Assembly: GCF_014279595.1 (NCBI RefSeq)
Contig: NZ_CP047943.1
Coordinates: 186,001 to 250,000, forward strand
Source: Synechococcus sp. RS9909
Lineage (GTDB): Bacteria; Cyanobacteriota; Cyanobacteriia; PCC-6307; Cyanobiaceae
Length of the DNA stretch: 64,000 bases
Direction of reading: 5' to 3'
Part shown: one piece after another, positions 29,715 to 55,522 of the stretch
Position numbering within the stretch: the stretch's first letter is position 1
Layout of the letters: each line of letters opens with the position of its first letter
Notes under the pieces: model-generated
The model's input: the letters and a program-made list of their open reading frames with translations, nothing else
Told to the model about the DNA's origin: nothing
Databases searched by the model: none
Program-made: the position numbers and the translations under genes

Positions 29715-31118
29715 TAAGAGTTTGCTGAAAAACCCCGTCGTCTCTGCGAAAATGGGCCAACTGCCCAGCTGAGATGCGAGGTCAGCGAGAGCGCAGCGGC
29801 TCCCTGTTTTCCTACGTGTCGATTGAGGAGAGGATTCCGGCCAGCCATCCGCTGCGGCGGATCCGGAAACTGGCCGATCAGGCTCTCGACCGGCTCAATC
29901 CAACCTTCTGCGCGCTGTATGCCGCAGAAGGCCGGCCCTCAGTGCCACCCGAGCAGCTGCTGCTGGCCTCGTTGCTGCAGGCGTTTTACGGCATTCGCTC
30001 GGAGCGGTTGTTGCTCGAGCAACTCAACTACAACCTCCTGTTTCGCTGGTTTGTGGGGCTGAGCCCTGATGATCCGATCTGGCACCCCACCACATTCACC
30101 AAAAACCGTGAGCGGCTGCTCAATGACCAGGTGATGGGGAAGTTCCTGGAGAAGCTGATGGGTGCACCAGAAGTCAAACCGCTGCTCAGCGATGAGCACT
30201 TCTCAGTGGATGGCACGCTGCTGCAGGCCTGGGCCTCCCATGCCTCGCTGGAGCGGATCGACGGTCAGGACGATCCCCCGCCGCCGCCATCAGGACCTGG
30301 CGAGGGCTTTGGTCAGCCCAAAGAGGGCAAGAAGCGTGCCAAGGTTGATTTCCGTGGCATCAAGCTCAGCAACCAGACCCACCGCTCCAGCACCGATCCC
30401 GAGGCCTTGCTGGCCCGGAAATCCAACGCTCACCCGGCCCAACCGAGCTATCGGGGCCATGTGCTGATGGACAACCGCCATGCCCTGATCGTGGATTGCA
30501 AAGTCACGCAGGCCACGGGCACCGGAGAACGGGATGCCGCCAAAGCGATGGCTGCAGATCGTCCCGGTGCCCACCAGAAAACTCTTGGCGCCGACAAGAA
30601 TTACGACACCCGGGGCTTTGTCGCCGAGATGCGCCGCATCGGTGTGACGCCCCATGTGGCGCAGAACACAGCTCGCCCTGGTGGATCAGCGATCGATGGC
30701 CGCACTGCCCGCCACGAGGGCTACGCCAAGTCGATCCATGCCCGCCGCGGCATCGAGAAGGTGTTTGGCTGGATCAAGCAGTGGGGCGGACTGCGCCAAT
30801 TCAAGCTGCGCGGCACTGAGAAAGTGAGCGCCGTGTTTGGCCTGCATGTGATCGCCTACAACCTGATTCGCATGGGCAACCTGCTCAAGGCGAAGCCTTC
30901 TCCGAGGGAGTGGCCGGCGATGGCAGCGGCATGACCATGAACAGATGGTTGCCCAGAGGTGTGTGCAGGTGCCAGCGATCAGGCAGCCCCAGCGGGGCCA
31001 AACGCCTGAAATCTTGTGTTCTGAGCCGCTGAATCGCTGAACTCCAGCCCGAACGGAGCGCGGTCAGCGTTCAGGAGGGAAAACGCGGCCAGCAAGGCAG
31101 TTTTTCTGCAAACTCTTA
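29715..31118. mobile_element. IS5-family insertion sequence with TA target duplication
   Basis: Terminal inverted repeats: left AGAGTTTGCTGAAAAAC from 29717, right the complement of GTTTTTCTGCAAACTCT ending at 31116, with one mismatch. TA dinucleotides flank both ends (29715-29716 and 31117-31118), as in IS5 subgroups that duplicate TA. The element is about 1.4 kb with one transposase gene and about 180 bases of non-coding sequence after it. The related sequence at 27799-27812 looks like an unoccupied copy of the left flank. Confidence 0.85.
29774..30934 (+). CDS. IS5-family transposase (DDE)
   Basis: A 386-residue DDE transposase. Residues about 15-110 form the N-terminal domain found before many DDE_Tnp_1 proteins (IPASHPLRRIRKLADQAL, PSVPPEQLLLASLLQAFYGIRS). 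Catalytic residues are visible in FSVDGTLLQAW (D), LGADKNYDTRGF (D) and RRGIEKVFGWIKQWGG (E), in the expected order and spacing. A glycine/proline insert (DDPPPPPSGPGEG) lies between them. ATG at 29774 follows the left terminal repeat by 40 bases. The gene looks intact, so the element may be active. Confidence 0.9.
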   Translation: MRGQRERSGSLFSYVSIEERIPASHPLRRIRKLADQALDRLNPTFCALYAAEGRPSVPPEQLLLASLLQAFYGIRSERLLLEQLNYNLLFRWFVGLSPDDPIWHPTTFTKNRERLLNDQVMGKFLEKLMGAPEVKPLLSDEHFSVDGTLLQAWASHASLERIDGQDDPPPPPSGPGEGFGQPKEGKKRAKVDFRGIKLSNQTHRSSTDPEALLARKSNAHPAQPSYRGHVLMDNRHALIVDCKVTQATGTGERDAAKAMAADRPGAHQKTLGADKNYDTRGFVAEMRRIGVTPHVAQNTARPGGSAIDGRTARHEGYAKSIHARRGIEKVFGWIKQWGGLRQFKLRGTEKVSAVFGLHVIAYNLIRMGNLLKAKPSPREWPAMAAA

Positions 31119-31264: not shown

Positions 31265-33076
31265 ATGCCGGCACCCGCAATCACCACCCCAACCACCAGC
31301 CCGCCCCAATCCACCTGCACCCTGCTGCTGGGCATCTGGGGCCACCTCAGCCGCCGGCGGCGGATCCAGCTGGGGCTGCTGTTGGTGGTGATGCTGGCCA
31401 GTGGCGGGGCGGAGCTGGTGTCGCTGGGGGCGGTGCTGCCGTTTCTGGCGGTGCTGAGCGACCCGGAGCGGCTGTGGCAGCAACCGCTGGTGCAGGTGCT
31501 GGCGGCGCGGGTGGGCTTCACGGAAGCGAGCGAGCTGTTGTTGCCGGCGACGCTGGCGTTTGCGGTGGCGGCGGTGCTGGCGGCGGTGGTGCGGCTGGCG
31601 AACCTATGGCTGAACGGCCGGCTGGCGGCAGCGGTGGGGTCTGACCTGAGCTGTGAGGCCTACCGGCGCACGCTGTATCAGCCCTATGGGGTACATGTGC
31701 AGCGCAACAGCGCCGCGGTGATCACGGGCACCACCACCCAGATCAATCTCACGGTGGTGGCTCTGAATGCTCTGCTGCAGCTGATCACCTCTGCTGTGGT
31801 GGCCGCCGGCCTGCTCACGGGGTTGCTGGTGATTGATGCACCGGTGGCTGTGGCTGCTGCGGCCCTGTTTGGCAGTGCCTACGGAGTTTTGGCGATGACT
31901 GCGCGGCGGGAGTTGCGTCGCAATGGCCAAAGGATCGCTGAGGCTTCCAGCCAGCAGCTCAAAGCGCTACAGGAAGGGCTTGGTGCCATTCGCGATGTGT
32001 TGCTCGATGGCAGCCAATCCACCTATCTGCAGATCTACCGCCAAGCCGATCGCCCCCAACGCCAGCTTCAGGCGAAAAATATTTTCTTAGGCGCTTTTCC
32101 CCGCTACGCACTCGAAGCCTTGGGCATGGTGGCGATTGCCCTGCTCGGTGGGTTGCTGGTGTGGCAGCGAGGCAGCGGCGCTGCTGTGATTCCTCTCCTG
32201 GGTGCCCTGGCCTTGGGGGCGCAACGCTTGTTGCCCGCCTTGCAGCAGATCTACAGCGGTTGGGCGGCGTTGAAGGGCTACAACGCTGCAATTCAGGCTG
32301 TATTGGCGATGCTCAACCAGCCGCTGCCGCCGCTGGTGCAGGTGGCCGAACCGCTGCCCCTGCGCGAGGGCATCCGCCTGGCGGCGGTGCACTTCCGCTA
32401 TGGGCCGGAGCAGACGGAAGTACTGCGGGGGCTGGAGGTGGAGATCCGCCGCGGCGAGCGCATTGGCTTGATCGGCAGCACCGGCAGCGGCAAAAGCACC
32501 ACAGTGGATCTGCTGATGGGTCTGCTGGCGCCCAGCGCCGGGCGGGTGCTGGTGGATGGGATGGATCTGCATGATCCGGCGCATCCGGAGCGGCTGGCGG
32601 CCTGGCGGGCGGCGATTGCTCATGTGCCCCAGAGCATCTACCTGGCCGACAGCTCGATTGCTGAGAACATCGCCTTTGGCGTGCCCCGCGATCAGATCGA
32701 CCTGGCCCGCGTGTGGCAGGCGGCGGCCCAGGCCCAGATCGCCAGCTTCATTGAGGCGAGCCCGGAGGGTTATGGGAGCTTTGTGGGCGAGCGGGGTATC
32801 CGCTTGAGCGGCGGCCAGCGCCAGCGAATTGGCATTGCCCGAGCGCTCTATAAGAACGCGCAGGTGCTGGTGTTGGATGAGGCCACCAGCGCGCTGGATA
32901 CTGCCACGGAGCAGGCGTTGATGGACGCGGTGAATGCGTTGAGCCAGGAGCTCACGATCGTGATGATTGCCCACCGGCTGAGCACGGTGGAGCGCTGTGA
33001 TCGGGTGATTTGCCTTGCTCAAGGCACTGTTGCAGCTGATGGACCTCCTCAGCTTGTTTTGGCCGCTCAAGCCTGA
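31265..33076 (+). CDS. ABC transporter, PglK-like lipid-linked oligosaccharide flippase
   Basis: A 603-residue half transporter with six membrane segments in the first 340 residues and a nucleotide-binding domain after that. Walker A is GSTGSGKSTTVDLLMG (about residue 405), signature LSGGQRQRIGIARALY, Walker B VLVLDEATSALD, H-loop IAHRLSTV. The N-terminal part resembles PglK, which flips undecaprenyl-linked oligosaccharide across the inner membrane, more than it does lipid A flippases. pseB starts 22 bases downstream. With the pgl genes at 55.5-59.9 kb this suggests a lipid-linked glycan route. Substrate specificity is inferred. Confidence 0.8.
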   Translation: MPAPAITTPTTSPPQSTCTLLLGIWGHLSRRRRIQLGLLLVVMLASGGAELVSLGAVLPFLAVLSDPERLWQQPLVQVLAARVGFTEASELLLPATLAFAVAAVLAAVVRLANLWLNGRLAAAVGSDLSCEAYRRTLYQPYGVHVQRNSAAVITGTTTQINLTVVALNALLQLITSAVVAAGLLTGLLVIDAPVAVAAAALFGSAYGVLAMTARRELRRNGQRIAEASSQQLKALQEGLGAIRDVLLDGSQSTYLQIYRQADRPQRQLQAKNIFLGAFPRYALEALGMVAIALLGGLLVWQRGSGAAVIPLLGALALGAQRLLPALQQIYSGWAALKGYNAAIQAVLAMLNQPLPPLVQVAEPLPLREGIRLAAVHFRYGPEQTEVLRGLEVEIRRGERIGLIGSTGSGKSTTVDLLMGLLAPSAGRVLVDGMDLHDPAHPERLAAWRAAIAHVPQSIYLADSSIAENIAFGVPRDQIDLARVWQAAAQAQIASFIEASPEGYGSFVGERGIRLSGGQRQRIGIARALYKNAQVLVLDEATSALDTATEQALMDAVNALSQELTIVMIAHRLSTVERCDRVICLAQGTVAADGPPQLVLAAQA

Positions 33077-33098: not shown

Positions 33099-34118
33099 AT
33101 GCTATTCAACTCAGGCTCCCGCATCCTCATCACCGGCGGCACCGGCAGCTTCGGCAAGGCGTTCATCGCCGAAACCCTAAAGCGTTTCCCCGACATCAAG
33201 CGGCTGGTGGTTTATAGCCGCGATGAGCTCAAGCAGTGGGAGCTGCAGCAGCTCTATCCAGAGAGTCAATATCCCCAGCTGCGCTTTTTTCTTGGCGATG
33301 TGCGCGATCAAAATCGCTTACGTCGAGCCCTAGAGAGGGTCGACACGGTGGTGCATGCAGCAGCGCTCAAGCAGGTGCCAGCGGCGGAGTACAACCCGAT
33401 CGAGTTCATCAACACCAACGTGCTCGGCGCTGAGAACGTGGTGCAGGCCTGCCTCGACACCGATGTGAAGCGGGTGGTGGCCCTGAGTACTGATAAGGCC
33501 GCCGCCCCGATCAATCTCTACGGCGCCACCAAGCTCTGCTCCGACAAGCTGTTCATCGCCGCCAACAACATCAAGGGCAGCCGCAATCTGTGCTTTTCCG
33601 TGGTGCGCTACGGCAATGTGATGGGCTCGCGCGGCTCGGTGATTCCCTTCTTTCTGGAAAAGGCGAAAACCGGCGTGCTGCCGATCACTGATCCGGCGAT
33701 GACCCGCTTCAACATCTCGCTCAGCGAGGGTGTGGCGATGGTGCAGTGGACACTCGAGCATGCCTTGGGCGGCGAGCTGTTCGTGCCCAAGATCCCCAGC
33801 TACCGCATCACCGATGTGGCCGAGGCGATCGGGCCGAGCTGCGAGAAGCCGATCACTGGCATCCGGCCCGGCGAGAAGATCCACGAGGAGATGATCACGG
33901 CGTCGGACAGCTTCACCACGATCGACCTGGGTGCCTACTACGCCATCCTGCCCAGCGATGGCCGCGTGCAGCAGCGCTATCAGGAGGCGGGCATCACCAG
34001 CACCGCCGTGCCACCGGGTTTCGCCTACAACTCCGGCTCCAACCCAGACTTCCTCACGGTGGAGCAGCTGCGGGCGTTGATCCGCGAGCACGTGGACCCT
34101 GCCTTTGTGCCGGCATGA
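33099..34118 (+). CDS. pseB: UDP-N-acetylglucosamine 4,6-dehydratase (inverting), PseB
   Basis: First enzyme of pseudaminic acid synthesis: dehydrates UDP-GlcNAc and inverts C5. The 339 residues have TGGTGSFGKAFIAETL, the characteristic VYSRDELKQWE, ALKQVPAAEYNPIEFINTN, LSTDKAAAPINLYGATK with the D-K and Y-x3-K residues used by inverting dehydratases, and IRPGEKIHEEMI. Length is normal. The stop overlaps the pseC start by ATGA. It is GC-rich, like the flippase and pseC and unlike the genes that follow. Confidence 0.93.
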   Translation: MLFNSGSRILITGGTGSFGKAFIAETLKRFPDIKRLVVYSRDELKQWELQQLYPESQYPQLRFFLGDVRDQNRLRRALERVDTVVHAAALKQVPAAEYNPIEFINTNVLGAENVVQACLDTDVKRVVALSTDKAAAPINLYGATKLCSDKLFIAANNIKGSRNLCFSVVRYGNVMGSRGSVIPFFLEKAKTGVLPITDPAMTRFNISLSEGVAMVQWTLEHALGGELFVPKIPSYRITDVAEAIGPSCEKPITGIRPGEKIHEEMITASDSFTTIDLGAYYAILPSDGRVQQRYQEAGITSTAVPPGFAYNSGSNPDFLTVEQLRALIREHVDPAFVPA

Positions 34119-35017
34119 GCAGCGAGCCCAGGCCCTTCCTCCCCTACGGCCGCCAGACCATCACCGAAGCCGACATCGCCGTGGTGGTGGAGGTGTTGCG
34201 CAGCCCCTTCCTCACCCAGGGGCCAGCGGTGCCTGCCTTTGAGCAGGCGGTGGCCGCCAAGGTGGGTGCTCGCCATGGGGTGGCGGTGAACAGCGCCACC
34301 AGCGCTCTGCACATCGCCTGCCTGGCCCTGGGGCTGGGGCCAGGCGATCGACTCTGGACCTCGCCGATCACCTTTGTGGCCTCGGCCAACTGCGGCCGCT
34401 ACTGCGGTGCGGAGGTCGATTTTGTCGACATCGACCCTGCCACCGGACTGATGAGCGTGGCCGCACTCCAAAACAAGCTGGAGCAGGCCGAACGCACCGG
34501 TTCCCTGCCGAAGGTGTTGGTGCCGGTGCATTTCACCGGCAGCAGCTGCGACATGGCGGCGATCGGGGCCTTGGCTGGGCGCTATGGCTTTGCGGTGCTG
34601 GAGGACGCCAGCCATGCGATTGGAGGCCGATACCAGGGCGAGCCGGTGGGCAACTGCCGCCACAGCGCCATCACGGTGTTCAGCTTCCACCCGGTGAAGA
34701 TCATCACCACCGGCGAAGGCGGTCTGGCGACCACCAATGATCCGCTGCTGGCCCAGCGCATGGCGGAGTTGCGCAGCCACGGCATCGTGCGCGAGAGCGA
34801 GCGCTTTGAGCGACCAGCGGCTGGGCCCTGGGTGTATGAGCAGCAGCAGCTGGGCTTCAATTACCGGATCACCGACATCCAGGCGGCGCTGGGCCTGAGC
34901 CAGTTGCAGCGGCTTGATTCAATCGTGGCGGAGCGCAACCGAAAACCGCAGCGCTACCGAGAGTTGCTGGCGGATCTGCCGGTGCGATTGCTGGAGGTGC
35001 CTGAGGTTGCAGCATGA
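34115..35017 (+). CDS. pseC: PseC-type aminotransferase, C-terminally truncated
   Basis: PLP-dependent enzyme that would aminate C4 of the PseB product. Visible: PFLPYGRQTITEADI, FLTQGPAVPAFEQAVA, NSATSALHIACLALGLG, LEDASHAIGG and the PLP-lysine segment FSFHPVKIITTGEGG, then LGFNYRITDIQAALG. The protein ends at 300 residues, whereas PseC proteins are about 375-390 long, so the C-terminal small domain after RLLEVPEVAA is missing. The TGA forms an ATGA overlap with pseF, exactly where base composition falls. Activity is doubtful; the aminotransferase at 56814 could in principle compensate. Confidence 0.85.
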   Translation: MSSEPRPFLPYGRQTITEADIAVVVEVLRSPFLTQGPAVPAFEQAVAAKVGARHGVAVNSATSALHIACLALGLGPGDRLWTSPITFVASANCGRYCGAEVDFVDIDPATGLMSVAALQNKLEQAERTGSLPKVLVPVHFTGSSCDMAAIGALAGRYGFAVLEDASHAIGGRYQGEPVGNCRHSAITVFSFHPVKIITTGEGGLATTNDPLLAQRMAELRSHGIVRESERFERPAAGPWVYEQQQLGFNYRITDIQAALGLSQLQRLDSIVAERNRKPQRYRELLADLPVRLLEVPEVAA

Positions 35018-35697
35018 AAATCTGCGTAATTCCCGCTCGGGGTGGCAGCAAGCGCATACCTCGCAAAAATATTCGTAATTTTTGTGGCAAGCCAATGATT
35101 GCATGGGCAATTGACTCTGCCCTTCAGTCAGGATTGTTCGATAAAATCATTGTATCCACTGATGATGAAGATATTGCTAATGTGGCACAGGCCGCCGGGG
35201 CAGAGATACCGTTTATCAGGCCGGCTGATCTTGCTGACGATTTAACGCCGACGGTACCTGTCATCGCTCATGCGGTCGAGACTTGTCAGGAGATTGGCTG
35301 GTGCATCGAGTACGCCTGCTGCATCTATCCTTGCGTCCCTTTCCTCAAAACATCTGACCTAACTGCTGCGTTTGGGCTGCTGCAAACATATGACTCCTCT
35401 TTTGTCTACCCCGTAACTGAATACTCTCACCCAATCCAGCGTGCGATGCGTCGTCTTCCAACTGGCCAAATGCAATTACTTCAGCCAGAGCATGAATTAA
35501 CCAGAACCCAAGACTTAGAGAAAACGTATCATGATACTGGGCAGTTTTATTGGGGAAGAGCAAGTTCTTGGACCGCATATGCAATGATGCATTCGGCTGG
35601 CATAGGCTTGATAGTGCCCAGCTGGCGCGTCGTCGACATCGACACTGACGACGATTGGAAGCGAGCCGAAATATTGCACAGATTCATCAACAATTAA
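35014..35697 (+). CDS. pseF: Pseudaminic acid cytidylyltransferase
   Basis: Activates the nonulosonic acid as its CMP derivative. The 227 residues begin IPARGGSKRIPRKNIRNFCGKP, the nucleotide-binding signature of the NeuA/PseF group, with STDDEDIANVA, a late YHDTGQFYWG and VVDIDTDDDWKRAE. The last phrases favour PseF over NeuA or LegF. First gene of the lower-GC block; its start overlaps the truncated pseC. It is followed by pseI after 22 bases. Confidence 0.88.
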   Translation: MKICVIPARGGSKRIPRKNIRNFCGKPMIAWAIDSALQSGLFDKIIVSTDDEDIANVAQAAGAEIPFIRPADLADDLTPTVPVIAHAVETCQEIGWCIEYACCIYPCVPFLKTSDLTAAFGLLQTYDSSFVYPVTEYSHPIQRAMRRLPTGQMQLLQPEHELTRTQDLEKTYHDTGQFYWGRASSWTAYAMMHSAGIGLIVPSWRVVDIDTDDDWKRAEILHRFINN

Positions 35698-35719
35698 ATT
35701 CAGTAAATAACCAGCTCTC

Positions 35720-36811
35720 ATGAACATCATCATGCCTTCACCGCTGCCAATCCTTGAGGTCCAAGGTAGAAAAATCGGAACTCACTACCCCGCTTATTTT
35801 ATCGCCGATATTGCTGCCAATCATGATGGAGACCTTGAACGTGCAAAAGACTTAATTTATTTAGCGGCAGAAGCTGGTGCAGATGCGGCTAAGTTCCAGC
35901 ACTTTCAAGCAGAAACCATCGTTAGCGATCATGGCTTCAAGAGCCTAAAAGAGCAAAACAGTCATCAAGCAAAGTGGAAAGAATCGGTTTTCAATGTATA
36001 CAAAGCAGCCAGTGTCAATCTGGATTGGACATCAACGCTGAAGGAGACATGTGATGATGCTGGGATTCCTTTCTTCACTACACCGTATGCGTTGGACGTA
36101 GTCGACTACATGGATGCCTATGTACCTGCTTATAAGATCGGCTCGGGTGATATCACTTGGATGCAAATGATTGAGTCCGTTGCCAGTAAGCAAAAACCAT
36201 ACTTCTTGGCGACGGGAGCATCAACGACAGATGAAGTGCATCGAGCAGTATGCGCCGCATTGGCCATCAATCCTCAACTCGCTCTGATGCAATGCAATAC
36301 TAACTACACAGCTAGATTAGAAAACTTTCAGTACATTCAACTCAATGTACTGAAGACCTACCGTGCCATGTATCCAGATATGGTTTTGGGCCTCTCTGAT
36401 CATACGCCGGGCCATGCCACCGTGCTGGGAGCAGTGGCCCTAGGTGCTCGAATGATCGAAAAACACTTCACCGATGACGTCAACAGGGTAGGCCCTGACC
36501 ATGCATTCTCGATGGATCCATGCACCTGGCGTGAGATGGTCGATCGCACTCGCGAACTCGAAAATGCGCTTGGCGATGGCGTTAAAAAAGTAGAGGACAA
36601 TGAAAAGGAAACAGTTGTGGTGCAGCGGCGTTCGCTGCGCGCAAGTGCAGACCTACCAAAATCTTATGCGATTAAGGAAGGTGATTTTATCGCCTTGCGT
36701 CCTTGCCCAACTGATGCCTTGTCTCCTGTCAAAATTCAAGCAATTGTTGGTCGAACTCTAAGACGCGATATTGCTGCAGGCGACTATCTACGAGCCTCGG
36801 ACCTGGAGTAG
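35720..36811 (+). CDS. pseI: Pseudaminic acid synthase (NeuB family)
   Basis: Condenses a 6-deoxy-diacetamido-hexose with phosphoenolpyruvate. Of 363 residues, 1-285 form the NeuB barrel: YFIADIAANHDGDLERAK, GADAAKFQHFQAETIVS, FFTTPYALDVVDYMD, YKIGSGDITW, GLSDHTPGHATVLGAVALGA and IEKHFTDD. Residues after about 300 form an SAF/antifreeze-like domain (RRSLRASADL to LRASDLE). The FQAETIVS phrase and the pseB/pseF context favour pseudaminic acid over legionaminic or sialic acid. ATG at 35720 or at 35732. Confidence 0.88.
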   Translation: MNIIMPSPLPILEVQGRKIGTHYPAYFIADIAANHDGDLERAKDLIYLAAEAGADAAKFQHFQAETIVSDHGFKSLKEQNSHQAKWKESVFNVYKAASVNLDWTSTLKETCDDAGIPFFTTPYALDVVDYMDAYVPAYKIGSGDITWMQMIESVASKQKPYFLATGASTTDEVHRAVCAALAINPQLALMQCNTNYTARLENFQYIQLNVLKTYRAMYPDMVLGLSDHTPGHATVLGAVALGARMIEKHFTDDVNRVGPDHAFSMDPCTWREMVDRTRELENALGDGVKKVEDNEKETVVVQRRSLRASADLPKSYAIKEGDFIALRPCPTDALSPVKIQAIVGRTLRRDIAAGDYLRASDLE

Positions 36812-36817
36812 AGTAGA

Positions 36818-37558
36818 ATGGATGTTTCAATTGTCATTACGGCATATAACTATGATCGGTTTATTGATGAGTGTTTAGATTCATGCCTTGGGCAGCAAAG
36901 CACGTCACTCAATCATGAGGTAATCGTGGTCGATGACGGTAGCACTGACAATACATCAGCTCTGTTGGCTCAGCGCAGTGACCCTCGCTTACGTGTGATA
37001 AGGATTAAGAATAGCGGCATTGAGTTTGCGTCTAATTTGGGATTTGCTGCTGCAAGTGGTCGCTTTATTGTTCGAGTTGATGCCGACGATTCTTTGGCAC
37101 CCAATTATTTGGCTCGAATGGAGCCGATGCTTGGGAAGGATTTTGGGTTTTACTATACTAATTATAGTATTATTAATGCCAGCAGTGAAACATTGGCTGA
37201 AGTTCGCTTGCCGGAGTTTGACGTGGCTGAGATTATGACGCGTGGCGATTTTCTCGCCACAGGCACCTTGTATCGAGCTGCGCTTCTGCACTCTCTCGGT
37301 GGCTATGCCACCCAAACCCGAAATAGTGGCTTGGAAAACTACGAGTTGATTCTTAGGCTAATTGATTTGGGTGTCAAAGGTGTTCATTTGGCAGAGTCTC
37401 TCTTTCAATACCGCCGCCACAGTACCAACATATCAGCCAGTCGTAAGAAAAGAATTATAGAGTATGGTCGTGCACTTTTTGAACGTAATGGATTAGGCGT
37501 CTTCTGCACCAATCAGTACCATCCTTATAAGCTAGACTTGTCTAAAGATCTATCATGA
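36818..37558 (+). CDS. Glycosyltransferase family 2
   Basis: A 246-residue GT-A enzyme. It opens VSIVITAYNYDRFIDECL, then VVDDGSTDNTSALL and RVDADDSLAPNYL, the nucleotide-sugar and DxD-type motifs of GT2. FSFTG-type acceptor motifs are not recognisable; the C-terminal part is short. It overlaps the deacetylase by ATGA and is six bases after pseI, so it may add a sugar next to the nonulosonic acid. Donor not known. Low GC like its neighbours. Confidence 0.85.
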   Translation: MDVSIVITAYNYDRFIDECLDSCLGQQSTSLNHEVIVVDDGSTDNTSALLAQRSDPRLRVIRIKNSGIEFASNLGFAAASGRFIVRVDADDSLAPNYLARMEPMLGKDFGFYYTNYSIINASSETLAEVRLPEFDVAEIMTRGDFLATGTLYRAALLHSLGGYATQTRNSGLENYELILRLIDLGVKGVHLAESLFQYRRHSTNISASRKKRIIEYGRALFERNGLGVFCTNQYHPYKLDLSKDLS

Positions 37559-38238
37559 AGCGTGTGTTGATCATTGCAGCTCATCCTGATGACGAAGTGC
37601 TCGGTTGTGGCGCAACAATTGCTAAGTATTCACGCATTGGCGCTGAGTTCATGGTGCTATTTATTGCTGAAGGTTCATCCTGCCGCTTCGTCAATCCGTC
37701 CTGTTCAGCAAGCATCGATGCGATCGCGGATCGCACTCGAATGGCCACAGATGCACTATCGAGGCTGGGTGTAAAACACTATTGCTTTAATGACCTGCCA
37801 TGCGGACGTCTTGACCAAGAGCCGATTATCAATATTAACAAGATGATTGAAAGAGCTATCCATAAGTTCGAGCCGGATACGGTTCTTACACATTCGGCTC
37901 TCGATGCTAATAATGACCACAGGATTGTGTTTCGTGCCACCATAATGGCGACTCGACCTAATTCTTTTTATGGGGTAGAGCGTCTACTTTCCTACGAAGT
38001 ATTGTCATCGAGCGAGTGGTCTTTTGGCGAGGCTTTTTCACCGACCGTCTTCGAACAGATTGATGAGCTGGACTTGGTCCTCAAATGGAGAGCTCTGGCT
38101 GCTTATGAGACGGAAGTAAAAACTTTCCCCTTTCCTCGTTCCGAAGAGGGGATTCGTGCAACTGCGATGAGCCGCGGAATGCAAGCCGGTGTTCCATTGG
38201 CAGAGGCTTTTTGCCTAATTAGGGAATTTAGACCATGA
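37555..38238 (+). CDS. PIG-L/LmbE family deacetylase
   Basis: A 227-residue zinc-dependent N-deacetylase of the LmbE/PIG-L family. The zinc motif is IAAHPDDEVLGCGATIAKY at the N-terminus, and the third ligand is in HSALDANNDHRIV near residue 120. Family members remove acetyl groups from amino sugars. Here it is translationally coupled (ATGA) both to the upstream GT2 and to the downstream formyltransferase-like gene. I infer that it removes an N-acetyl group from a sugar of this glycan, so another acyl group can replace it. Confidence 0.85.
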   Translation: MKRVLIIAAHPDDEVLGCGATIAKYSRIGAEFMVLFIAEGSSCRFVNPSCSASIDAIADRTRMATDALSRLGVKHYCFNDLPCGRLDQEPIININKMIERAIHKFEPDTVLTHSALDANNDHRIVFRATIMATRPNSFYGVERLLSYEVLSSSEWSFGEAFSPTVFEQIDELDLVLKWRALAAYETEVKTFPFPRSEEGIRATAMSRGMQAGVPLAEAFCLIREFRP

Positions 38239-38891
38239 GAATTGCTTGCGTTGGCTACCGTAATTGGGCCCTAAATATTTATGACAGACTGGCTGCAAGC
38301 ACAGACCATACTTTCTTGATATTTCGCTCTAAAGCGCAGTTTAATAAAGAGGCATTATCAGATTTTAAACCAGACTTGGTTTTATTCTATGGTTGGAGCT
38401 GGCTTGTGCCAACTGATCTATTGGAGCGCCATACTTGCTTGATGCTTCATCCATCACCATTGCCGCGCTATCGAGGCGGTAGCCCCATTCAAAATCAAAT
38501 TATTGCAGGCGAAACTTATTCAAAAGTTACACTCTTTATCATGACAGATGCGCTCGACGCGGGTGACATAGTGGGTCAGAGCGATCTTAGTTTGATTGGC
38601 ACGATAGATGAAATATTTAAACGCATAGAAGATGAAGGCGTTAAGCTGACTCGACACATCCTTGAGGATGGATTGCAGCGCGAACAGCAAGATCATTCAG
38701 CAGCAACTTTCTGCAAGCGGCGCAAGCCCAGCGAAAGCGAAATAACGGCTGAGGAGCTCGCGACAAAGCCAGCCGAGTATTTGTACAATAAAATCCGAAT
38801 GTTGGCGGATCCTTATCCAAATGCATATATTATTGCCGCTGATGGCAAAAAACTCATAATCACAGCAGCGCATATCGAGAGAGTCATTTAA
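38235..38891 (+). CDS. Formyltransferase-fold protein, catalytic Asn replaced
   Basis: A 218-residue protein of the formyltransferase (Fmt/PurN-like) fold. The core reads LMLHPSPLPRYRGGSPIQ, AGETYSKVTLFIMTDALDAGD. The histidine and the aspartate of the usual Asn-His-Asp triad are present, but the position two residues before the histidine, normally Asn, is Met. Similar sugar N-formyltransferases use N10-formyltetrahydrofolate. The C-terminal short domain (LADPYPNAYIIAADGKKLII) resembles the Fmt C-terminal region. Directly coupled to the deacetylase. Likely a sugar N-acyl-modifying enzyme; the missing Asn makes ordinary formyl transfer uncertain. Confidence 0.75.
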   Translation: MRIACVGYRNWALNIYDRLAASTDHTFLIFRSKAQFNKEALSDFKPDLVLFYGWSWLVPTDLLERHTCLMLHPSPLPRYRGGSPIQNQIIAGETYSKVTLFIMTDALDAGDIVGQSDLSLIGTIDEIFKRIEDEGVKLTRHILEDGLQREQQDHSAATFCKRRKPSESEITAEELATKPAEYLYNKIRMLADPYPNAYIIAADGKKLIITAAHIERVI

Positions 38892-38903
38892 AATTTGGCT
38901 TTT

Positions 38904-39773
38904 ATGATCAAAGTTTTAGTCACCGGTGCAACTGGCTTGCTAGGTTGTTCATTGGTGCCGTTTCTGCAAGAATGTGGTCATCAAGTTATACGCATGGGTA
39001 ATACACGTGCTAGTGACCTGAATATCGACCTTGTAAGTTATGAGCAGACTGCGCGAGCGCTCGACAATACCAAGCCAGACGTCATCATTAACTTGGCTGC
39101 CTTAACTAATGTCGACCGCTGTGAAACTCACCCGCAGGAAGCTTATTTGCTTAATGTAAAGGCTGTTGAAAATCTTTGTGCATGGATTAAGACAGCGGGT
39201 CAAGTTTGCCACCTGATCCAGATTTCTACGGACCAAGTGTATGACGGGCCTGGACCCCATTCAGAAGGCGAGCTCACTATCTGCAATTTCTATGCAATGT
39301 CTAAGCTGGCTGGCGAAATTATTGCGGGAACAGTATCCAGCACTATCCTAAGAACCAATTTTGTAGGCCGCAGCCTATGCGGCGGGCGTGCCAGTCTGAC
39401 AGACTGGCTACATTGTGCATTGATTGATCAAACTGCGGTTAATGTGTTTGAGGATGTGATGTTCAGCCCTCTGGCAATCAGCACGCTTTGTGATTGCATA
39501 GAGCATTGCATCGTTGAAAGGCCACCTGGTGTTTTTAACCTTGGCTCTCGTGAGGGCATGAGTAAAGCGGATTTTGCTTTCGCCTTTGCCGCTGCCCGAG
39601 GTCTCGAAACCACCAACCTTAAGCGTGTTAATTCCAAATCTATCACTACACTAGTTGCACGCCGTCCAACCGATATGTGTATGAATAGTGGCCGCTTTGA
39701 GGAATGCATGGATATAAAGTTACCATTATTAGTTGACGAGGTTTATCGAATAGCAGATCAGTATCATCGATAG
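38904..39773 (+). CDS. RmlD-like NAD(P)-dependent sugar reductase
   Basis: A 289-residue extended SDR enzyme with VTGATGLLGCSLVPFL, INLAALTNVDRCE, QISTDQVYDG and YAMSKLAGEIIAG (the tyrosine-lysine pair), like RmlD or related reductases. ATG at 38904 is used, with TTG at 38895 possible. It is last in the lower-GC series and not part of the rml operon at the right end, which has its own rmlD. Substrate unknown; it may reduce a keto sugar linked to the same glycan. Confidence 0.8.
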   Translation: MIKVLVTGATGLLGCSLVPFLQECGHQVIRMGNTRASDLNIDLVSYEQTARALDNTKPDVIINLAALTNVDRCETHPQEAYLLNVKAVENLCAWIKTAGQVCHLIQISTDQVYDGPGPHSEGELTICNFYAMSKLAGEIIAGTVSSTILRTNFVGRSLCGGRASLTDWLHCALIDQTAVNVFEDVMFSPLAISTLCDCIEHCIVERPPGVFNLGSREGMSKADFAFAFAAARGLETTNLKRVNSKSITTLVARRPTDMCMNSGRFEECMDIKLPLLVDEVYRIADQYHR

Positions 39774-39938: not shown

Positions 39939-40570
39939 GTGCCCCAAAGCGTTTCTGCCGCAACCGATCTCGATCTGATCAGCCACCTCAAGGCGATCCC
40001 TGATGCCCGGATGCGTCGAGGGGTTCGTATCCCGGCCTGGTACCTGTTGCTGGTGGCGGTGCTCGGCATCCTGAGCAAGTGCGAGAGCCTGCGGGATCTG
40101 GAGCGTTTTGCCCGGCGTCATCACTCTGTGCTCACGGAGTCGCTCGGGATCGAACTCAAACGCCCGCCGTCGGATTCCGCCTTCCGCTACTTTTTCCTGC
40201 AGGTGGATGTGGCTGCTATCTGCGGCGCCATCCGTGATTGGACATTGGCTCAGATCCCAGGCGGTGCAGGCGATCTCGATCAGTTGATCTGTGACGGCAA
40301 GACCCTGCGCGGTTCGATTGAGCCCACCAGCGGAGGCGGTGCAGCCTTCATCGCCCAGGTGACGCTTTACTCCGCTGCTTTGGGTGTGGCGATCGCTCAG
40401 GCCTGCTACGCCACAGGCGAGGATCACGAACGTGCTGTGCTCCAAAAGCTGCTTGGCGAGCTGGATCTCGAGGGTGTGCTCATCCAGGCGGATGCACTCC
40501 ACACGCAGCAAGCGTTTTTCGGCAGCTCACAGAGCAGGGGGCCGACTTCCTCCTGACGGTTAAGGCCAAC
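39939..40570 (+). pseudogene. ISAs1-family transposase, 5-prime part
   Basis: Reads from GTG at 39939: LISHLKAIPDARMRRGVRIP, LGILSKCESLRDLERFAR, RPPSDSAFRYFF, LICDGKTLRGS (first D) and IQADALHTQQAFF. At about 40520 one base appears missing, so that the frame changes; the next frame continues RQLTEQGADFLLTVKAN up to the IS3 insertion at 40570. So the gene was broken twice, by frameshift and by insertion. Confidence 0.85.
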
Positions 40571-40610
40571 CCGGTGACTTTCAGGAAAGGTGTCACTGCT
40601 GGGCTGCCGT

Positions 40611-41735
40611 TCAGGCGGCCTGCATCAATGGTAGCTGCCCTGGTTCATTGAGTTCATCCGTCGGCTGATTGATCCAGACCACCTCCGGTTGACGCCAGCA
40701 CCTGGTTGACCTTGTCCATCGCCTTGGATGGCGCTGGCGGGCTCGTTCGTAGACGACACCGCGGTGACGGCTGATCTCCACGGCCTGGCCATCGTGACGT
40801 TGCTGGGGCGTCACGAATTTGATACCGCTGTGGCGGTGCCGGTGGTTGTACCAGTCGACGAACTCGGCGACCCACTGACAAGCCCGCTCTTTCGAGGCAA
40901 AGGGCTTGCGGGGGTAATCAGGCCGGTACTTCACTGTCCGGAACAGGGATTCGGAGTACGGGTTGTCGTTGGAGACCCGTGGCCGAGAGAAGGATCTGAG
41001 GACGCCCAGTTCTTCCAAGCGGCTTTCCAGCGTGGCTGCCCGCATGGCGTTGCCGTTATCGGCATGGAGGATCAGCGGCTGCTGCCGGCCCTTGCTGATC
41101 CGCTCGCGGAGGCAGGCCCGGCTGACCAGATCGGCTGCAATGGCTGGATCTTCTCGCTCAGCAACATCCCAGGCCACCACCTTGCGGCTCCAGATGTCGA
41201 TCACCAGGTAGAGATAGAGCCAGATCCCACGCACGGTGGTGGGCAAATAGGAGATGTCCCAGCTCCACACCTGGTTCGGGCCTGTGGCCCGCAGCCGTGG
41301 AACCCGTCTGGGCTCCTGTGGTGGCCTTGCACGACCGCGACGGTGCACCTGGTCATGGTCGTGGAGCACCCGGTAGAAGCTACTCTCTGAACCGATAAAA
41401 ATCCCCTGGTCAGCCAGATCAGGCACGATCTGACTCGGTGGCAGAGCGGCGTACTGCGGTTGATTGCAGGTGAGCAGGATCCTCTGGCGCTCCTCGGCCG
41501 TGAGGCGATGGGGAATATGGCGGGGGCTGCCTTGCCGGCGATCCTCACCGTCCCCATCACCAAGAAGGCGTTGGCGCCATCGCTTGAGGGTGCGCAGGCA
41601 GATGCCGATCTCGCCGCAGGCGCTGACCAGGCCTGCACCAGCGGTATGGGCCTCGCTGATCAGCTCGATGGCCTTCTTCCTGTGAGCGGCGCTGGTCAGC
41701 CTTCCGCGTCCTCCGAGCAGAAGGCCTCCCACTTT
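40611..41735 (-). CDS. IS3-family transposase OrfB (DDE integrase domain)
   Basis: Integrase-type catalytic part, reached by frameshift from orfA. It has a helix-turn-helix region (SACGEIGICLRTLKRW), then WSWDISYLPTT (first D), LILHADNGNAMRA (second D) and NDNPYSESLFRTVKYRPDYP (E), with WVAEFVDWYNHRHRHSGI near the end, which is the IS3 family pattern. The frame is open from about 41735, where the -1 slippage site lies, to 40611; an independent start is not clear. The C-terminus is long and basic. Probably still functional with orfA. Confidence 0.88.
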   Translation of the reverse strand, partial: KVGGLLLGGRGRLTSAAHRKKAIELISEAHTAGAGLVSACGEIGICLRTLKRWRQRLLGDGDGEDRRQGSPRHIPHRLTAEERQRILLTCNQPQYAALPPSQIVPDLADQGIFIGSESSFYRVLHDHDQVHRRGRARPPQEPRRVPRLRATGPNQVWSWDISYLPTTVRGIWLYLYLVIDIWSRKVVAWDVAEREDPAIAADLVSRACLRERISKGRQQPLILHADNGNAMRAATLESRLEELGVLRSFSRPRVSNDNPYSESLFRTVKYRPDYPRKPFASKERACQWVAEFVDWYNHRHRHSGIKFVTPQQRHDGQAVEISRHRGVVYERARQRHPRRWTRSTRCWRQPEVVWINQPTDELNEPGQLPLMQAA

Positions 41736-42202
41736 TTTCGCAGCACCAGCAAGGCCGCCATCTCCGCCATGGCCTTCTCCTTGCGTTGCAGCTCCTTCTT
41801 GAGGGCCTTGATCTCCTTCTGGTCCTGGGCACGGAGCTTCTCCAGCTCCTTCTGCTCTTTCAAGGTGAGCACTGGCTTCTCGTTGGCATCCTGGGCGGCC
41901 TGCCGCCAACGATCCACCTGCTCCGGGTACAGCCCGCGCTCACGACAGTAGGCACTGAGTTCAGTGGCGTTCAAGCCAGCGGTCTCGAGCACCACCGTGA
42001 ACTTGTCGGCAGCACTCCAACCGTCAGGGTCCTTATCGGATGCCGGCACCACCTCTCCTTGCAACCGCCAGGTCTTCCTCCAGTTGTAGAGGGTGACGAT
42101 GTGAATGCCCAGCTCAGCAGAAATCTGCGCCACGCTCTGTCTGTGAGGCGGGCTCATCCGCCTCCTCACATCAGCTTTAACGGCCTCGCTGTAACGACGC
42201 AT
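41696..42202 (-). CDS. IS3-family OrfA (helix-turn-helix DNA-binding part)
   Basis: A 168-residue protein. The N-terminus (YSEAVKADVRRRM, SVAQISAELGIHIVTLYNWRK) is a helix-turn-helix of the transposase family 8 type. The C-terminal half (KEQKELEKLRAQDQKEIKALKKELQRKEKA) is a leucine-rich coiled coil used for dimer formation. It overlaps orfB in the -1 frame, and the frameshift signal is A-AAA-AAG at 41738-41732. Start ATG at 42202. Confidence 0.88.
   Translation of the reverse strand: MRRYSEAVKADVRRRMSPPHRQSVAQISAELGIHIVTLYNWRKTWRLQGEVVPASDKDPDGWSAADKFTVVLETAGLNATELSAYCRERGLYPEQVDRWRQAAQDANEKPVLTLKEQKELEKLRAQDQKEIKALKKELQRKEKAMAEMAALLVLRKKWEAFCSEDAEG
41732..41738 (-). promoter_or_regulatory. 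Programmed -1 frameshift heptamer (A AAA AAG)
   Basis: On the minus strand orfA reads CGA AAA AAG TGG here. A slip of one base back gives AAA AAA GTG, exactly the orfB frame (Lys-Lys-Val). This is the standard slippery sequence of IS3 elements, which make the OrfAB fusion transposase. Confidence 0.8.
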
Positions 42203-42269
42203 TGGTCATGTCCTCAAGCCCCCGGGTGTACTGAAAACAGGGGTGACAACTTTCCTGAAACCGGGGGAC

Positions 42270-42776
42270 CAGAAGACGCTCTACCGGCAGATCGCCGATC
42301 AGCTGCTTGGAAAACGCCACATCCCCTTGATGGCAACCGATCACGAGATCGGCCATGGCCGTGACATCCTCTGGACTTTGAGGGCGAAAGAAGCGCCGCA
42401 GCACATCAAGGCCAATTGGCATGGCACCAGCTGGATCGCGGAAGTGATCGCGACAGGCACCCGTGATCGCAAGCCGTTCAAGGCTACGCACCGCTTTATC
42501 ACCAGCCTGCGCACCACCCCAGATGCGTTGCTGCGCCTCGTGAGAGAGCGCTGGAGCGTTGAGAGCTGGCACTGGATTCGTGACACCCAGCTCCACGAGG
42601 ACGACCACCGCTACCGCGGCAACGGTGCCGGCGTGATGGCAGCCCTACGCACCGCAGCGATGAATCTCTTGCGCCTGACTGGATTTGGCTCAATCCGGGA
42701 GGGCCTGCAAGCGGTGATGCATGACATCACGGCACTGCTGGCGATGGCGCGACGACAGCCAGAGCCCGAGCCATGA
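42270..42776 (+). pseudogene. ISAs1-family transposase, 3-prime part
   Basis: Continues the gene interrupted at 40570: QKTLYRQIADQLLGKRHIP, then IAEVIATGTRDRKP, ALLRLVRERWSVESWHWIRDTQLHEDDHRYRG with the catalytic glutamate, and RTAAMNLLRL, to a stop at 42774-42776. The C-terminal DDE residue and the helix rich in tryptophan fit the ISAs1 family. It can no longer be expressed together with its 5-prime part. Confidence 0.85.
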
Positions 42777-42807: not shown

Positions 42808-43550
42808 CTGCAGCATCCGCCGGATCGCGTTGTTGAGGCCCTTGTGGGCATCGCTGATCACGAGCTTGACCCCGCTGAGGCCGCGCTCCTTGAGCGAACC
42901 GATGAACTCGCTCCAGAAGCCCTCGCTTTCGCTGTCGCCGATCTTGAGGCCGAGCAGCTCGTGCCGGCCATCGGCGTTACGCCCATGGCGACGACGACGG
43001 CACTGGAGCAGACCTGCATCGCCCGGCCCAGGCGGCCATGCAGGTAGGTGGCGTCGAGATAGAGGTAGGCGTAACCCTGGCCCTCCAGCGGCCGGTTCAG
43101 GAACGCCTGCACCTGGAGATCGATCTCAGCGCAGATGCGGCTCACCTGTGATTTGGAGATCCCGCTCTGGCTGCCCAGAGCCGCCACCAGGGCATCAACC
43201 TTGCGTGTGGAGACGCCGGCGACATAGGCCTCCATCACCACGGCGTAGAGGGCTTGATCCACCCGCCGGCGCGGTTCGAGGATCGAGGGCAGAAAGCTGC
43301 CTGAGCGCAGCTTGGGGATCTGGAGATCGATGTCGCCCACCTGGGTGGTGAGCACGCGAGGCCGGTAGCCGTTGCGGTGGCCAAGGCGCTCCTCGCTGCG
43401 CTCGTAGCGCTCAGCACCGAGCACGGCGGCGACCTCCAGCTCGATCAGCTGCTGCAGGCCGTGGCGCACCAGTTCAGGGATCAGCTCTCCGGCAGTGTTG
43501 CCATCGAGTAGCGGCGCCAGTTCAGAGGCGGCACTATGGGTCTTGGGCAT
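42808..43550 (-). pseudogene. IS256-family (mutator) transposase, truncated and frameshifted
   Basis: From ATG at 43550 the minus strand reads LIPELVRHGLQQLIELEVAA, LGHRNGYRPRVLTTQVGDI, DLQIPKLRSGSFLPSI, VAGVSTRKVDALVAALG and LYLDATYLHGRLGR (first catalytic D). Near 42977 one base is missing relative to the expected GVNADGRHELLGLK, after which the other frame reads LKERGLSGVKLVISDAHKGL (second D) up to MLQG at the ISAs1 insertion. The last third, with the catalytic glutamate, is absent. Beyond the ISAs1 element, the flank does not resume the gene, so it was already truncated when ISAs1 arrived. Confidence 0.85.
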
Positions 43551-44090
43551 GGTTCGTCTGGTTGAGGTGGTTCTCAAACCAGGGTCACGGGCCTGCCCAC
43601 CCCTTGCAGCGACAGCCACTGAGCCGGGTGCCTGAGCTGCGCGTAACCCCGGCTACACCGGGGTTGATGTCCCAAGGGAATTACACCAATCCCTGGGACG
43701 CGGGCATCAGCTTTGTGGCGCCTCGCCATTGTTCAAGCAGTGAAGCCCTGATAGAATTCAAAAATGTGCTTCCATTTATGAATAAGCACATCAGACAAAC
43801 TCCGGATTGATGCATGAGCTTCTTCCGTGAACTCCAGATGGTCTGGTTATTACTCCACTACTGGAGGCTAGATCTGAATACAGCTACCTTGTTAAAGGCT
43901 CATTGAATATCGGCAAGGGCACTTCTTTTCATGGAATCGACCGTGTCACTCTGTCGTGATCAATCCAAGAGTTCTCTCCCCTGTATAATGAATTGTCACG
44001 AGCATGATCCAATGATTTGCATCTATATTTTCCTTCCACCGAGATTTCACTGAACCTAAGTTATTGTTAATTAAATTTATTTAACCGAGC
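43551..44090. other. Composition boundary: IS256 end and start of AT-rich island
   Basis: About 540 bases without a gene. 43646-43664 is a hairpin (ACCCCGG stem, 5-base loop), and 43669-43709 has GTCCCA/TGGGAC inverted sequences; these may be the end of the IS256 element. From about 43730 the sequence becomes AT-rich. A frame at about 43840-43960 (VITPLLEARSEYSYLVKGS) may be a gene remnant that I cannot identify. Any promoter for 44091 and the island must lie here. Confidence 0.4.
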
Positions 44091-44732
44091 ATGAGTTACC
44101 CTGATGTTGCTAGAACTGAGATACTAGATCTTTTGCCTTCTTCAAAAGTATATCAGAATTGTTTAGATATTGGCTGCGGAACAGGAGCTACCTCTTATCT
44201 CATGCTTAAAAAAGGAATTATTGATAAATCCTTTGGCGTCGATTCTGATCCCGATATTGCAAAAATTGCGAGAAAACGTTTAACTTATTTTAAAAGCTCC
44301 CATGCAGAAGATGTCATAGGCCTAGTACGTGATTACTCACCAGATTTAGTTTTGATGCTAGATGTTCTAGAACATATGAGCGATCCTAAGATCTCCTTGC
44401 AAGAGATTGCTCAAAACACTACTGATAGCTGTGTTTATGTTGTAAGTTTGCCCAACGTATCCCATTACACAGTACTAATGCCTCTTCTTCTTAAAGATCA
44501 TTTTTACTATGATCCAATGGGTGGAATATTGGATTCAACCCATTTGCGTTTTTTCACTTACAGCTCTATGCTGGATTTATTTAATGAATGCAACTTATCG
44601 GTGGCAAACTATTCATTTAATTCATTAATCCCCCGGATCTTAATGCCTATTTCTCCAGTTATTTCGCGCTTGCCACAATTTATAAGACGATTTTTTGTTA
44701 CACAGTACATCTTCTTGCTTCGCAAAAACTAA
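44091..44732 (+). CDS. SAM-dependent methyltransferase, class I
   Basis: A 213-residue methyltransferase. Motif I is [29 protein letters not shown] gives the acidic residue that binds the ribose; [14 protein letters not shown] is a typical motif IV with the EH pair common in sugar and small-molecule methyltransferases. The C-terminal part ([13 protein letters not shown], then a hydrophobic segment) fits the Methyltransf_11/12 group. It is the first gene of the AT-rich island, five bases upstream of gmd. Acceptor unknown. Confidence 0.8.
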
Positions 44733-44737
44733 GCACC

Positions 44738-47634: not shown

Positions 47635-47732
47635 AATATGTTGTATTGTTTCTAGATGTTTGGCGTTACCTGAAAATATTTGAAGCATGACTCCCTTTAT
47701 ACGCATTTTCTAAGCCCAAACATTTAATTATT

Positions 47733-50766: not shown

Positions 50767-50768
50767 CT

Positions 50769-54384: not shown

Positions 54385-54393
54385 TTTGACTCC

Positions 54394-55515: not shown

Positions 55516-55522
55516 TCTTGAA

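Follow-up and report, generated by a model that had tools for sequence, protein, structure and literature searches.

By what route could a nonulosonic acid be made from a block of six genes that has pseF and a nonulosonate synthase and neither PseG nor PseH? The question is raised by a locus in the window, as we call the 64,000-nt stretch of Synechococcus sp. RS9909 DNA analysed here (contig NZ_CP047943.1, positions 186,001 to 250,000). The six open reading frames that a first-pass annotation had placed at 35014-39773 are genuine: all lie where it put them and were scored to families by profile (Table 1), and the labels pseF and GT2 hold. Its description of the genes as mostly overlapping is correct for the GT2/PIG-L and PIG-L/formyltransferase-fold (FMT-fold) joins, each sharing 4 bases, but not for the other three, which are gaps of 22, 6 and 3 bases. 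A 4-base overlap is also found between pseC and pseF, and the block as delimited leaves out the resident pseB and a truncated pseC that lie just outside it. Transposases of three types lie in the right flank of the block, one seemingly nested in another.

Table 1. Features of the locus, in window coordinates.
Feature	Coordinates	Strand	Evidence
Resident ABC transporter (66% GC), possible glycan flippase	31265..33076	+	L025 and several further loci have a homologue upstream of pseB
pseB, UDP-GlcNAc 4,6-dehydratase (inverting); resident	33099..34118	+	TIGR03589 499 bits, cut-off 408
pseC remnant of 300 aa, lacking the C-terminal quarter	34115..35017	+	82.8% identity to L022 PseC, residues 1-296
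pseF-type CMP-nonulosonate cytidylyltransferase	35014..35697	+	TIGR03584 296 bits, cut-off 206
Nonulosonate synthase, separate NeuB clade (NeuB-A)	35720..36811	+	Clade support 100/100; Gly where PseI-type enzymes have Phe
GT2-fold glycosyltransferase	36818..37558	+	PF00535
PIG-L/LmbE N-deacetylase	37555..38238	+	PF02585 82 bits; H10, D12, D13, H122 invariant
FMT-fold acyltransferase of a 1zgh-like subfamily, usual Asn absent	38235..38891	+	PF00551; 1zgh E=1.2e-25
RmlD-like 4-ketoreductase; TTG at 38895, in-frame ATG at 38904	38895..39773	+	TIGR01214 133 bits, cut-off 224

The GC content of the block is 44-49%, against 62-67% in the three upstream genes, and it drops from 0.67 in pseC to 0.49 in pseF, which is the start of a low-GC cassette. 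This cassette abuts a resident pseB-pseC pair, and the last quarter of pseC was lost at the junction. The cyanobacterium has acquired genes that probably direct the synthesis of a sialic-acid-like surface sugar, and do so by fewer steps than the routes known so far; bacteria of many phyla share this shorter route. Such a history could also have left a non-functional mosaic, the cassette having landed in a pse locus beside insertion sequences and the pathway being dead. The broken pseC and the transposases to the right would fit this, but all six cassette ORFs are open, active-site motifs are conserved in the RmlD-like, FMT-fold and PIG-L proteins, the gene order is that of another locus (L026), and pseB, which the route proposed below requires, is intact. 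We consider a dead pathway quite improbable.

The genome is a single contig, which our whole-genome searches cover. Its sole pseB match at E<=1e-60 is the resident gene, and an intact PseC was not found in it. The window's pseC stops at 300 residues, after aligned residues 1-296 of the 391-aa L022 PseC, and the missing C-terminal part was not found elsewhere in the genome (the best match, at 32% identity, is another ORF). Furthermore, PseG gave no match in the genome at E<=1, the best PseH match was a GNAT with 17.5 bits against a cut-off of 93 bits, and no hydrolysing NeuC was found. The idea of a nonulosonate pathway without PseG and PseH is thereby supported genome-wide. Set against the CMP-pseudaminic acid pathway (PseB-C-H-G-I-F), the locus shares the operon layout, a NeuB-superfamily synthase and the PseB and PseF families, both over their cut-offs, but it is without intact PseC, PseH, PseG and PseI-type synthase, has an RmlD-like reductase, and carries a synthase of another clade.

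The synthase had been labelled pseI, which is misleading. It scores 265 bits with the NeuB model and 231 bits with the PseI model (TIGR03586, cut-off 340), both below the models' own cut-offs. In a tree, it belongs to one fully supported clade, NeuB-A, separate from both PseI-type and Leg/Neu-type enzymes; in the alignment, 80/80 NeuB-A rows have Gly at nmNeuB position 132, where PseI-type enzymes have Phe. NeuB-A is present in many phyla. Nonulosonic acids are predicted from genomes via Neu, Leg and Pse gene sets, and a synthase clade running without PseC, PseG and PseH in genomes from many phyla would wrongly be taken for "pseudaminic" or "neuraminic", as happened here.

To characterize the neighbourhood of NeuB-A genes, we used the best 80 of at least 526 relatives from a scan. 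In 54 of the 62 loci from this set with enough flank, NeuB-A has an RmlD-like gene no more than two genes away (L043 and L056 were left out, the synthase ORF not having been picked). Of 81 NeuB-A genes, 65 come directly after such a gene, and a GT-fold gene of GT2 or GT4 type directly follows neuB in 66 of 81 loci. The locus count scored the window as lacking pseB, an artefact of the overlap filter, as a longer alternative pseC frame overlaps that gene. At a threshold of at least 60 bits PseG and PseH were found in 0/62 NeuB-A loci, and RmlD in 0/16 Pse/Leg/Neu-type control loci; the same models recover PseG in all three loci annotated with it. A genome-wide test, for which we submitted 50 loci of our own choice and counted 53 NeuB-A genomes, found PseB over its cut-off in 50 genomes, PseC in 7 (the window's truncated copy included), PseG in 5 and PseH in 3. 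Five NeuB-A loci were counted as having PseC with a score of at least 420 bits; the NeuB-A loci contain six such proteins, and each of them scores far higher, 640-663 bits, with another DegT-type model. The YxxxK motif is present in 73 of 75 RmlD-like proteins above 200 bits. The window's RmlD-like protein falls short of the curated RmlD score, and the true RmlD of the genome (281 bits) is encoded elsewhere. Two further loci, L026 and L015, combine pseB with the same kinds of cassette genes as the window. Altogether, the locus stands out by having an RmlD-like reductase, a synthase from a clade of its own and no intact PseC.

Judging from protein families and gene neighbourhoods, we hold it moderately probable that the cassette encodes a nonulosonic acid route that skips amination and leads to a 7-hydroxy-9-deoxy nonulosonate like fusaminic acid, with the PIG-L/FMT-fold pair as an N-formyl add-on. 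By family function, the resident PseB would convert UDP-GlcNAc to UDP-4-keto-6-deoxy-L-AltNAc. The RmlD-like enzyme would reduce the 4-keto group to a hydroxyl, reduction taking the place of amination, so that neither PseC nor PseH would be needed. After UDP release from the UDP sugar, NeuB-A would join PEP to the liberated 6-deoxy-HexNAc, giving a 5-acylamido-3,5,9-trideoxynonulosonate with a 7-OH, from which the PseF-type enzyme, again by family function, would form the CMP sugar. In a separable add-on, the pair would most likely remove the single N-acetyl group (on N5 in the product, on N2 in the precursor) and put a formyl in its place. Surface-glycan assembly and export would fall to the GT2 and the ABC transporter. 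The break at the cassette join, which spared pseB but not pseC, argues for this route. If the route is right, the locus provides a set of candidate genes for making fusaminic-type acids.

FnlA/FnlB and related UDP-deoxy-HexNAc routes likewise start with a PseB-like dehydratase and continue with an RmlD-like 4-ketoreductase, but they have no synthase step and end with a UDP-hexosamine. As for the product, Fusobacterium nucleatum 25586 is reported to have fusaminic acid, its configuration still tentative, next to 6-deoxy-L-AltNAc (PMC13014188). Fusaminic acid is likewise a 3,5,9-trideoxynonulosonate, and the precursor predicted by our route, 6-deoxy-L-AltNAc, is in the same repeat unit; it differs by an acetimidoyl on N5. 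A full-text literature search, with subscription journals mostly outside it, found no biosynthesis paper naming fusaminic acid genes, and no Fusobacterium is among the best 80 of at least 526 loci. Halorubrum sp. PV6 resembles the predicted product in its formyl on nonulosonate N5: it is reported to have 5-N-formyl-legionaminic acid, and a predicted formyltransferase gene is transcribed together with its leg genes (PMC6137143). It differs in using the legionaminic route, with LegC and a NeuC-type LegG, and its formyltransferase is predicted only.

Several observations count against an amination-free route. Six of the 62 NeuB-A loci lack an RmlD-like gene above 200 bits within 6 kb, and four of the 53 genomes have both PseC and PseG over cut-off. 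Under a published rule, Gly at position 132 goes with Neu/Leg-type, not Pse-type, C2 geometry (PMC7371886), whereas PseB should yield the Pse-type; the Gly may be merely permissive. Furthermore, no UDP-release gene is conserved across the 53 NeuB-A genomes, PseG being over cut-off in 5 and NeuC found in 16, so that UDP release is exposed as a concrete gap in the route. NeuC was rejected as the general UDP-releasing enzyme on this count and on its absence from the window's own genome. A bolder version, in which PseB, an RmlD-type reductase and the NeuB clade would form a widespread unrecognised branch, with UDP released by the GT-fold protein after neuB and the window's pair giving an N-formyl, 7-hydroxy, 9-deoxy nonulosonate, we consider improbable.

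We also looked at the pair itself. Sequence matches to solved structures were clear. The PIG-L assignment rests on its Pfam score and on H10, D12, D13 and H122, invariant in 14 aligned sequences; HPDD plus a distal His we take to be the metal-site residues of PIG-L deacetylases. Sugar and Met-tRNA N-formyltransferases have an Asn-His-Asp catalytic triad. In the FMT-fold protein M70 replaces the Asn, while H72 and D108 are invariant, so the triad is incomplete; the absence of the Asn from 13/13 aligned formyltransferase-fold proteins speaks against the N-formyl step of the favoured route. The pair is found with both synthase types. Two loci, the pseudaminate operon L121 and the PseI-type locus L022, contain it together with PseB, PseC, PseG and a PseH-like gene, and the PseI-type loci L021 and L113 contain it with PseG and a PseH-like gene. 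The pair is thus ruled out as a substitute for PseG and PseH, and the link that the first-pass annotation had implied between the two breaks down. Its suggestion that a deacetylase and an acyltransferase swap one N-acyl group is plausible and fares better: an exchange of N5-acetyl for N5-formyl would fit both settings, and the pair in the window probably swaps the sugar's acetyl for formyl. This sets the pair apart as a reusable N-acyl exchange module.

Taken literally, the annotation would have the pair replace PseH and PseG in an ordinary pseudaminate pathway by formylating PseC's 4-amino group. PseB, PseC and PseF families are indeed in or near the block, and N-formyl pseudaminates exist (7-formamido in Pseudoalteromonas distincta, going by a title cited in PMC7281560). 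However, PseC is truncated here and was not found at E<=1e-90 in the genomes of the sister loci L014, L015 (G116) and L026 (G251), the synthase is not PseI-type, the pair coexists elsewhere with PseG and PseH-like genes, and a free amine would need no PIG-L. We regard this reading as very unlikely.

Alternatively, the GT2 and the pair could form an acceptor-side unit, in which the GT2 would attach a HexNAc to the growing glycan for PIG-L to deacetylate and the FMT-fold protein to formylate, while the nonulosonate keeps its N-acetyl. A glycosyltransferase followed by a deacetylase is the order of mycothiol and bacillithiol synthesis. The order GT2-PIG-L-FMT is contiguous in complete NeuB-A loci (the window, L014, L015, L026, L050). 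In L027 a single other GT2 replaces the trio as a block, and in L059 and L068 a GT2 of the window's type occurs with no PIG-L or FMT nearby; both fit a glycan-side rather than a nonulosonate role and so count against the favoured add-on. On the other hand, the PseI-type loci L016, L019, L113 and L121 have the pair beside the synthase without this GT2, and the FMT of L018 and L024 carries a fused domain that L016 and L019 have on the PseH-like GNAT instead. An acceptor-side role is possible, though on the unlikely side.

Finally, we followed the FMT-fold gene across genomes. NeuB is present in 12/12 FMT-positive picocyanobacterial genomes against 128/250 overall (hypergeometric p=2.5e-4 without correction for relatedness). 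The window-type FMT is rare outside cyanobacteria: at E<=1e-22 it was found in 3 of 369 genomes, one being an already known locus and the other two L121 and L120, the latter not a pseudaminate operon with the pair. L020 has the pair and no nonulosonate gene within its 19.5 kb, with NeuB genes elsewhere in its genome. Formyltransferases of Palleronia and Ruegeria plasmids were set aside, as they sit in other sugar loci, and phage PIG-L matches (17 records, at most 31% identity among the matches listed) were uninformative. An amidotransferase-like protein, which we considered as an acetimidoyl maker, is present in 14 NeuB-A loci, inside a separate Gfo/DegT module.

The window is positions 186001-250000 of a single-contig genome of 2.60 Mb whose completeness is listed as 100%, and ORF and family checks of the block bore out the gene content given in the first-pass annotation: pseF, a synthase, GT2, a PIG-L deacetylase, a formyltransferase-fold protein (FMT) and an RmlD-like protein. 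GC falls from 0.67 in the resident pseC to 0.49 in pseF and is 0.44-0.49 across all six block genes, with transposase genes on the right of the block; because of this drop and these transposases, the block is most likely a cassette set behind the resident pseB and pseC. The join is the pseF start codon, with a 4-base overlap. The resident pseC encodes 300 residues versus 391 in the complete family member of L022, a picocyanobacterial locus; it matches the latter at 82.8% identity over residues 1-296 and then ends. Elsewhere in the genome the missing portion did not turn up; what came closest was a match of 32% identity in a different ORF. The stretch 39939-42776 appears to be a mobile element within another mobile element.

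A scan of genome contigs with three window-type synthases as queries yielded at least 526 relatives, of which the best 80 (57-86% identity) were retained. Among these 80 the best matches to the window synthase come from a Ferrovum MAG (86%) and a Comamonadaceae MAG (81%). Another locus, L026, carries the same six gene kinds in identical order behind pseB, and among 250 picocyanobacterial genomes no same-genus genome besides the window's own has FMT. The simplest account would be transfer from a betaproteobacterium-like source into the resident pse locus. In 102 plasmid records the best synthase match reached 56% identity and the next, among the matches listed, 38%.

The label "pseI" given to the synthase in the first-pass annotation does not hold. 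In a tree of 52 synthases, of which 31 are window-type sequences from the 80 retained, the window-type synthases form one group on a long stem (support 100/100; NeuB-A), and the PseI-type group (100/98) and the Leg/Neu types fall apart from it. At nmNeuB position 132, Pse-type enzymes mostly, though not strictly, have Phe and Neu/Leg-type enzymes Gly (PMC7371886); in this column Gly occurs in 80/80 window-type sequences (the best 80 of at least 526) and Phe in all 13 PseI-type sequences of the tree. By record titles, the same 80 come from Pseudomonadota, Cyanobacteriota, Chloroflexota, Gemmatimonadota, Bacillota, Planctomycetota, Verrucomicrobiota, Zixibacteria, Omnitrophota and others, many being MAGs.

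NeuB-A ORFs were obtained in 81 of 83 candidate loci (the window, L014, L015 and L025-L104), and 62 had enough flank (4 kb or more on the upstream side, 2.5 kb or more on the downstream side). An RmlD-like gene (at least 200 bits) lies within two genes of NeuB-A in 54/62 and within 6 kb in 56/62, and PseB within 6 kb in 52/62, a count that wrongly places the window among the misses. Directly upstream of the synthase the gene is RmlD-like in 65/81 loci; directly downstream it has a glycosyltransferase fold in 66/81 (40 + 18 + 8, three types). Neither PseG nor PseH was found in any of the 62 at 60 bits, although weak GNAT scores (35-45 bits) occurred in three NeuB-A loci, and PIG-L and FMT each occur in 5/62. 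RmlD was found in 0/16 control loci, whose synthases are of Pse/Leg/Neu type and whose flanks are in some cases short, while the same models recovered PseG in L108, L109 and L111, the three annotated with it, and in L121. Judged by these comparisons, NeuB-A is a separate synthase clade tied to an RmlD-like gene. Five of the 62 loci gave PseC-like matches at 420 bits; these are members of another DegT type. A recurrent module near NeuB-A (L036, L040, L042, L044, L045 and others) comprises a Gfo/Idh oxidoreductase, a DegT aminotransferase, a GNAT, a 300-aa protein, an amidotransferase-like protein (27% identity to an annotated N-acetyl sugar amidotransferase) and a protein we take to be amidase-like.

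The absence of PseG and PseH, which the first-pass annotation had proposed to check genome-wide, extends to the whole genome: PseG gave no match at E<=1, and PseH only a GNAT at 17.5 bits. NeuC was not found at E<=1e-60, and PseC only as the truncated copy at E<=1e-90, while PseB is present as a single intact copy. A true RmlD (281 bits) is encoded elsewhere, so the housekeeping role does not fall to the RmlD-like protein of the cassette (132 bits). Across 53 NeuB-A genomes (3 picocyanobacteria plus 50 reached through loci that we chose from the 80), matches over the curated cut-offs numbered 50 for PseB, 7 for PseC, 5 for PseG, 3 for PseH and 16 for NeuC. PseC and PseG coincide in four, which may also have a second, ordinary pathway; 34/53 have neither NeuC nor PseG (over cut-off or as a single 130-bit match). 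As many of the 53 are MAGs, single absences weigh little, and it is the contrast with PseB that counts.

RmlD-family enzymes reduce 4-keto groups on 6-deoxy nucleotide sugars. The PseB product is UDP-4-keto-6-deoxy-L-AltNAc (PMC5109656, PMC7439481), which the RmlD-like protein would reduce to a 4-hydroxy precursor, and the nonulosonate formed would bear a 7-OH and a single amide, at C5. We predict this product since PseB and the RmlD-like gene adjoin the synthase without PseC or PseH, and find it rather probable that reduction replaces amination; a broken pseC beside a retained pseB agrees with PseC being dispensable. A known acid of this kind is fusaminic acid (5-acetimidoylamino-3,5,9-trideoxy-gluco-nonulosonic acid, tentatively L-glycero-L-gluco), described together with 6-deoxy-L-AltNAc in the F. 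nucleatum 25586 O-chain (PMC13014188). By our stereochemical reasoning its precursor would have the L-altro configuration, and the two acids, fusaminic and pseudaminic, would differ at C4; as the synthase sets this carbon, a synthase other than PseI would be needed. Homology gave no candidate for the enzyme freeing the sugar from UDP. Of the NeuB-A neighbors without an assigned role, the most constant is the GT-fold gene that follows neuB, and on this basis its product could, more boldly, release UDP.

GT2, PIG-L and FMT are grouped in five NeuB-A loci (the window, L014, L015, L026 and L050); L025 and L033 are interrupted by contig ends. In nine further picocyanobacterial loci selected by their FMT (L016-L024, 19.5 kb each), PIG-L is present in all and a PseI-type synthase within 8 kb in eight; in L017 PIG-L and FMT lie on opposite strands. 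The pair also adjoins a PseI-type synthase on a Synechococcus plasmid (L113) and sits in a gammaproteobacterial operon (L121) with PseB, PseC, PseF, PseG, a PseH-like domain and PseI. FMT (E<=1e-20) occurs in 12/250 picocyanobacterial genomes, all 12 with NeuB versus 128/250 overall (p=2.5e-4, shared ancestry ignored). Since the pair accompanies both synthase kinds, with and without PseH, a shared product feature, the N5 acyl group, explains it best. Halorubrum sp. PV6 makes a 5-N-formyl nonulosonate, and the operon includes a predicted formyltransferase gene (PMC6137143). That the pair would exchange the N5 acetyl for formyl is about an even bet. PIG-L retains H10, D12, D13 and H122 in 14/14 aligned sequences. 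Against the exchange, all 13 aligned FMT-fold proteins lack the usual Asn (H72, D108 and Asn87 are invariant), a single GT2 replaces the GT2/PIG-L/FMT block in L027, and the 19.5 kb of L020 carry the pair with no synthase found. The nearest solved structure, 1zgh (E=1.2e-25), likewise lacks the Asn that 4iqf carries at the equivalent place. Named a Met-tRNA formyltransferase, 1zgh resembles the nonulosonate-associated FMT subfamily, and its name may be wrong.

Coordinates of features in the window and in other loci
Locus	Coordinates	Strand	Feature	Remark
Window	29774-30934		Further DDE transposase	Flanks surface-sugar region
Window	35014-39773		Six-gene block
Window	35720-36811		NeuB-A synthase
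Window	39939-40556		DDE-type transposase gene, first part	Gene apparently split
Window	40611-42202	minus	Inserted two-frame element with integrase-core protein	Between the two DDE parts
Window	42243-42776		DDE-type transposase gene, second part	Slightly below Pfam cut-off
Window	42858-43619		Mutator-family transposase fragment	Flanks surface-sugar region
Window	44001-56000		Second low-GC island (32-46% GC): methyltransferase, GDP-mannose 4,6-dehydratase family gene, GT2	Probably another acquired glycan module
L018	9539-10672		FMT fused to ~130-aa domain
L024	9061-10194		FMT fused to ~130-aa domain
L016	10370-11248		PseH-like GNAT fused to same domain
L019	8628-9494		PseH-like GNAT fused to same domain
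L017	9994-10416		Same domain, freestanding
L023	7654-8085		Same domain, freestanding
L022	6816-9104		One 762-aa protein: PseG, PseH-like GNAT and other-kind formyltransferase-fold domain	Formyltransferase-fold domain: HESALPQGQGWSP
L121	6140-7360		PseH-like GNAT fused to other-kind formyltransferase-fold domain only	PseG not in the fusion

The ~130-aa domain gave no Pfam match over cut-off; in the pairs found, its copies on FMT and on the PseH-like GNAT are 33-49% identical, with E-values of at most 2e-19.
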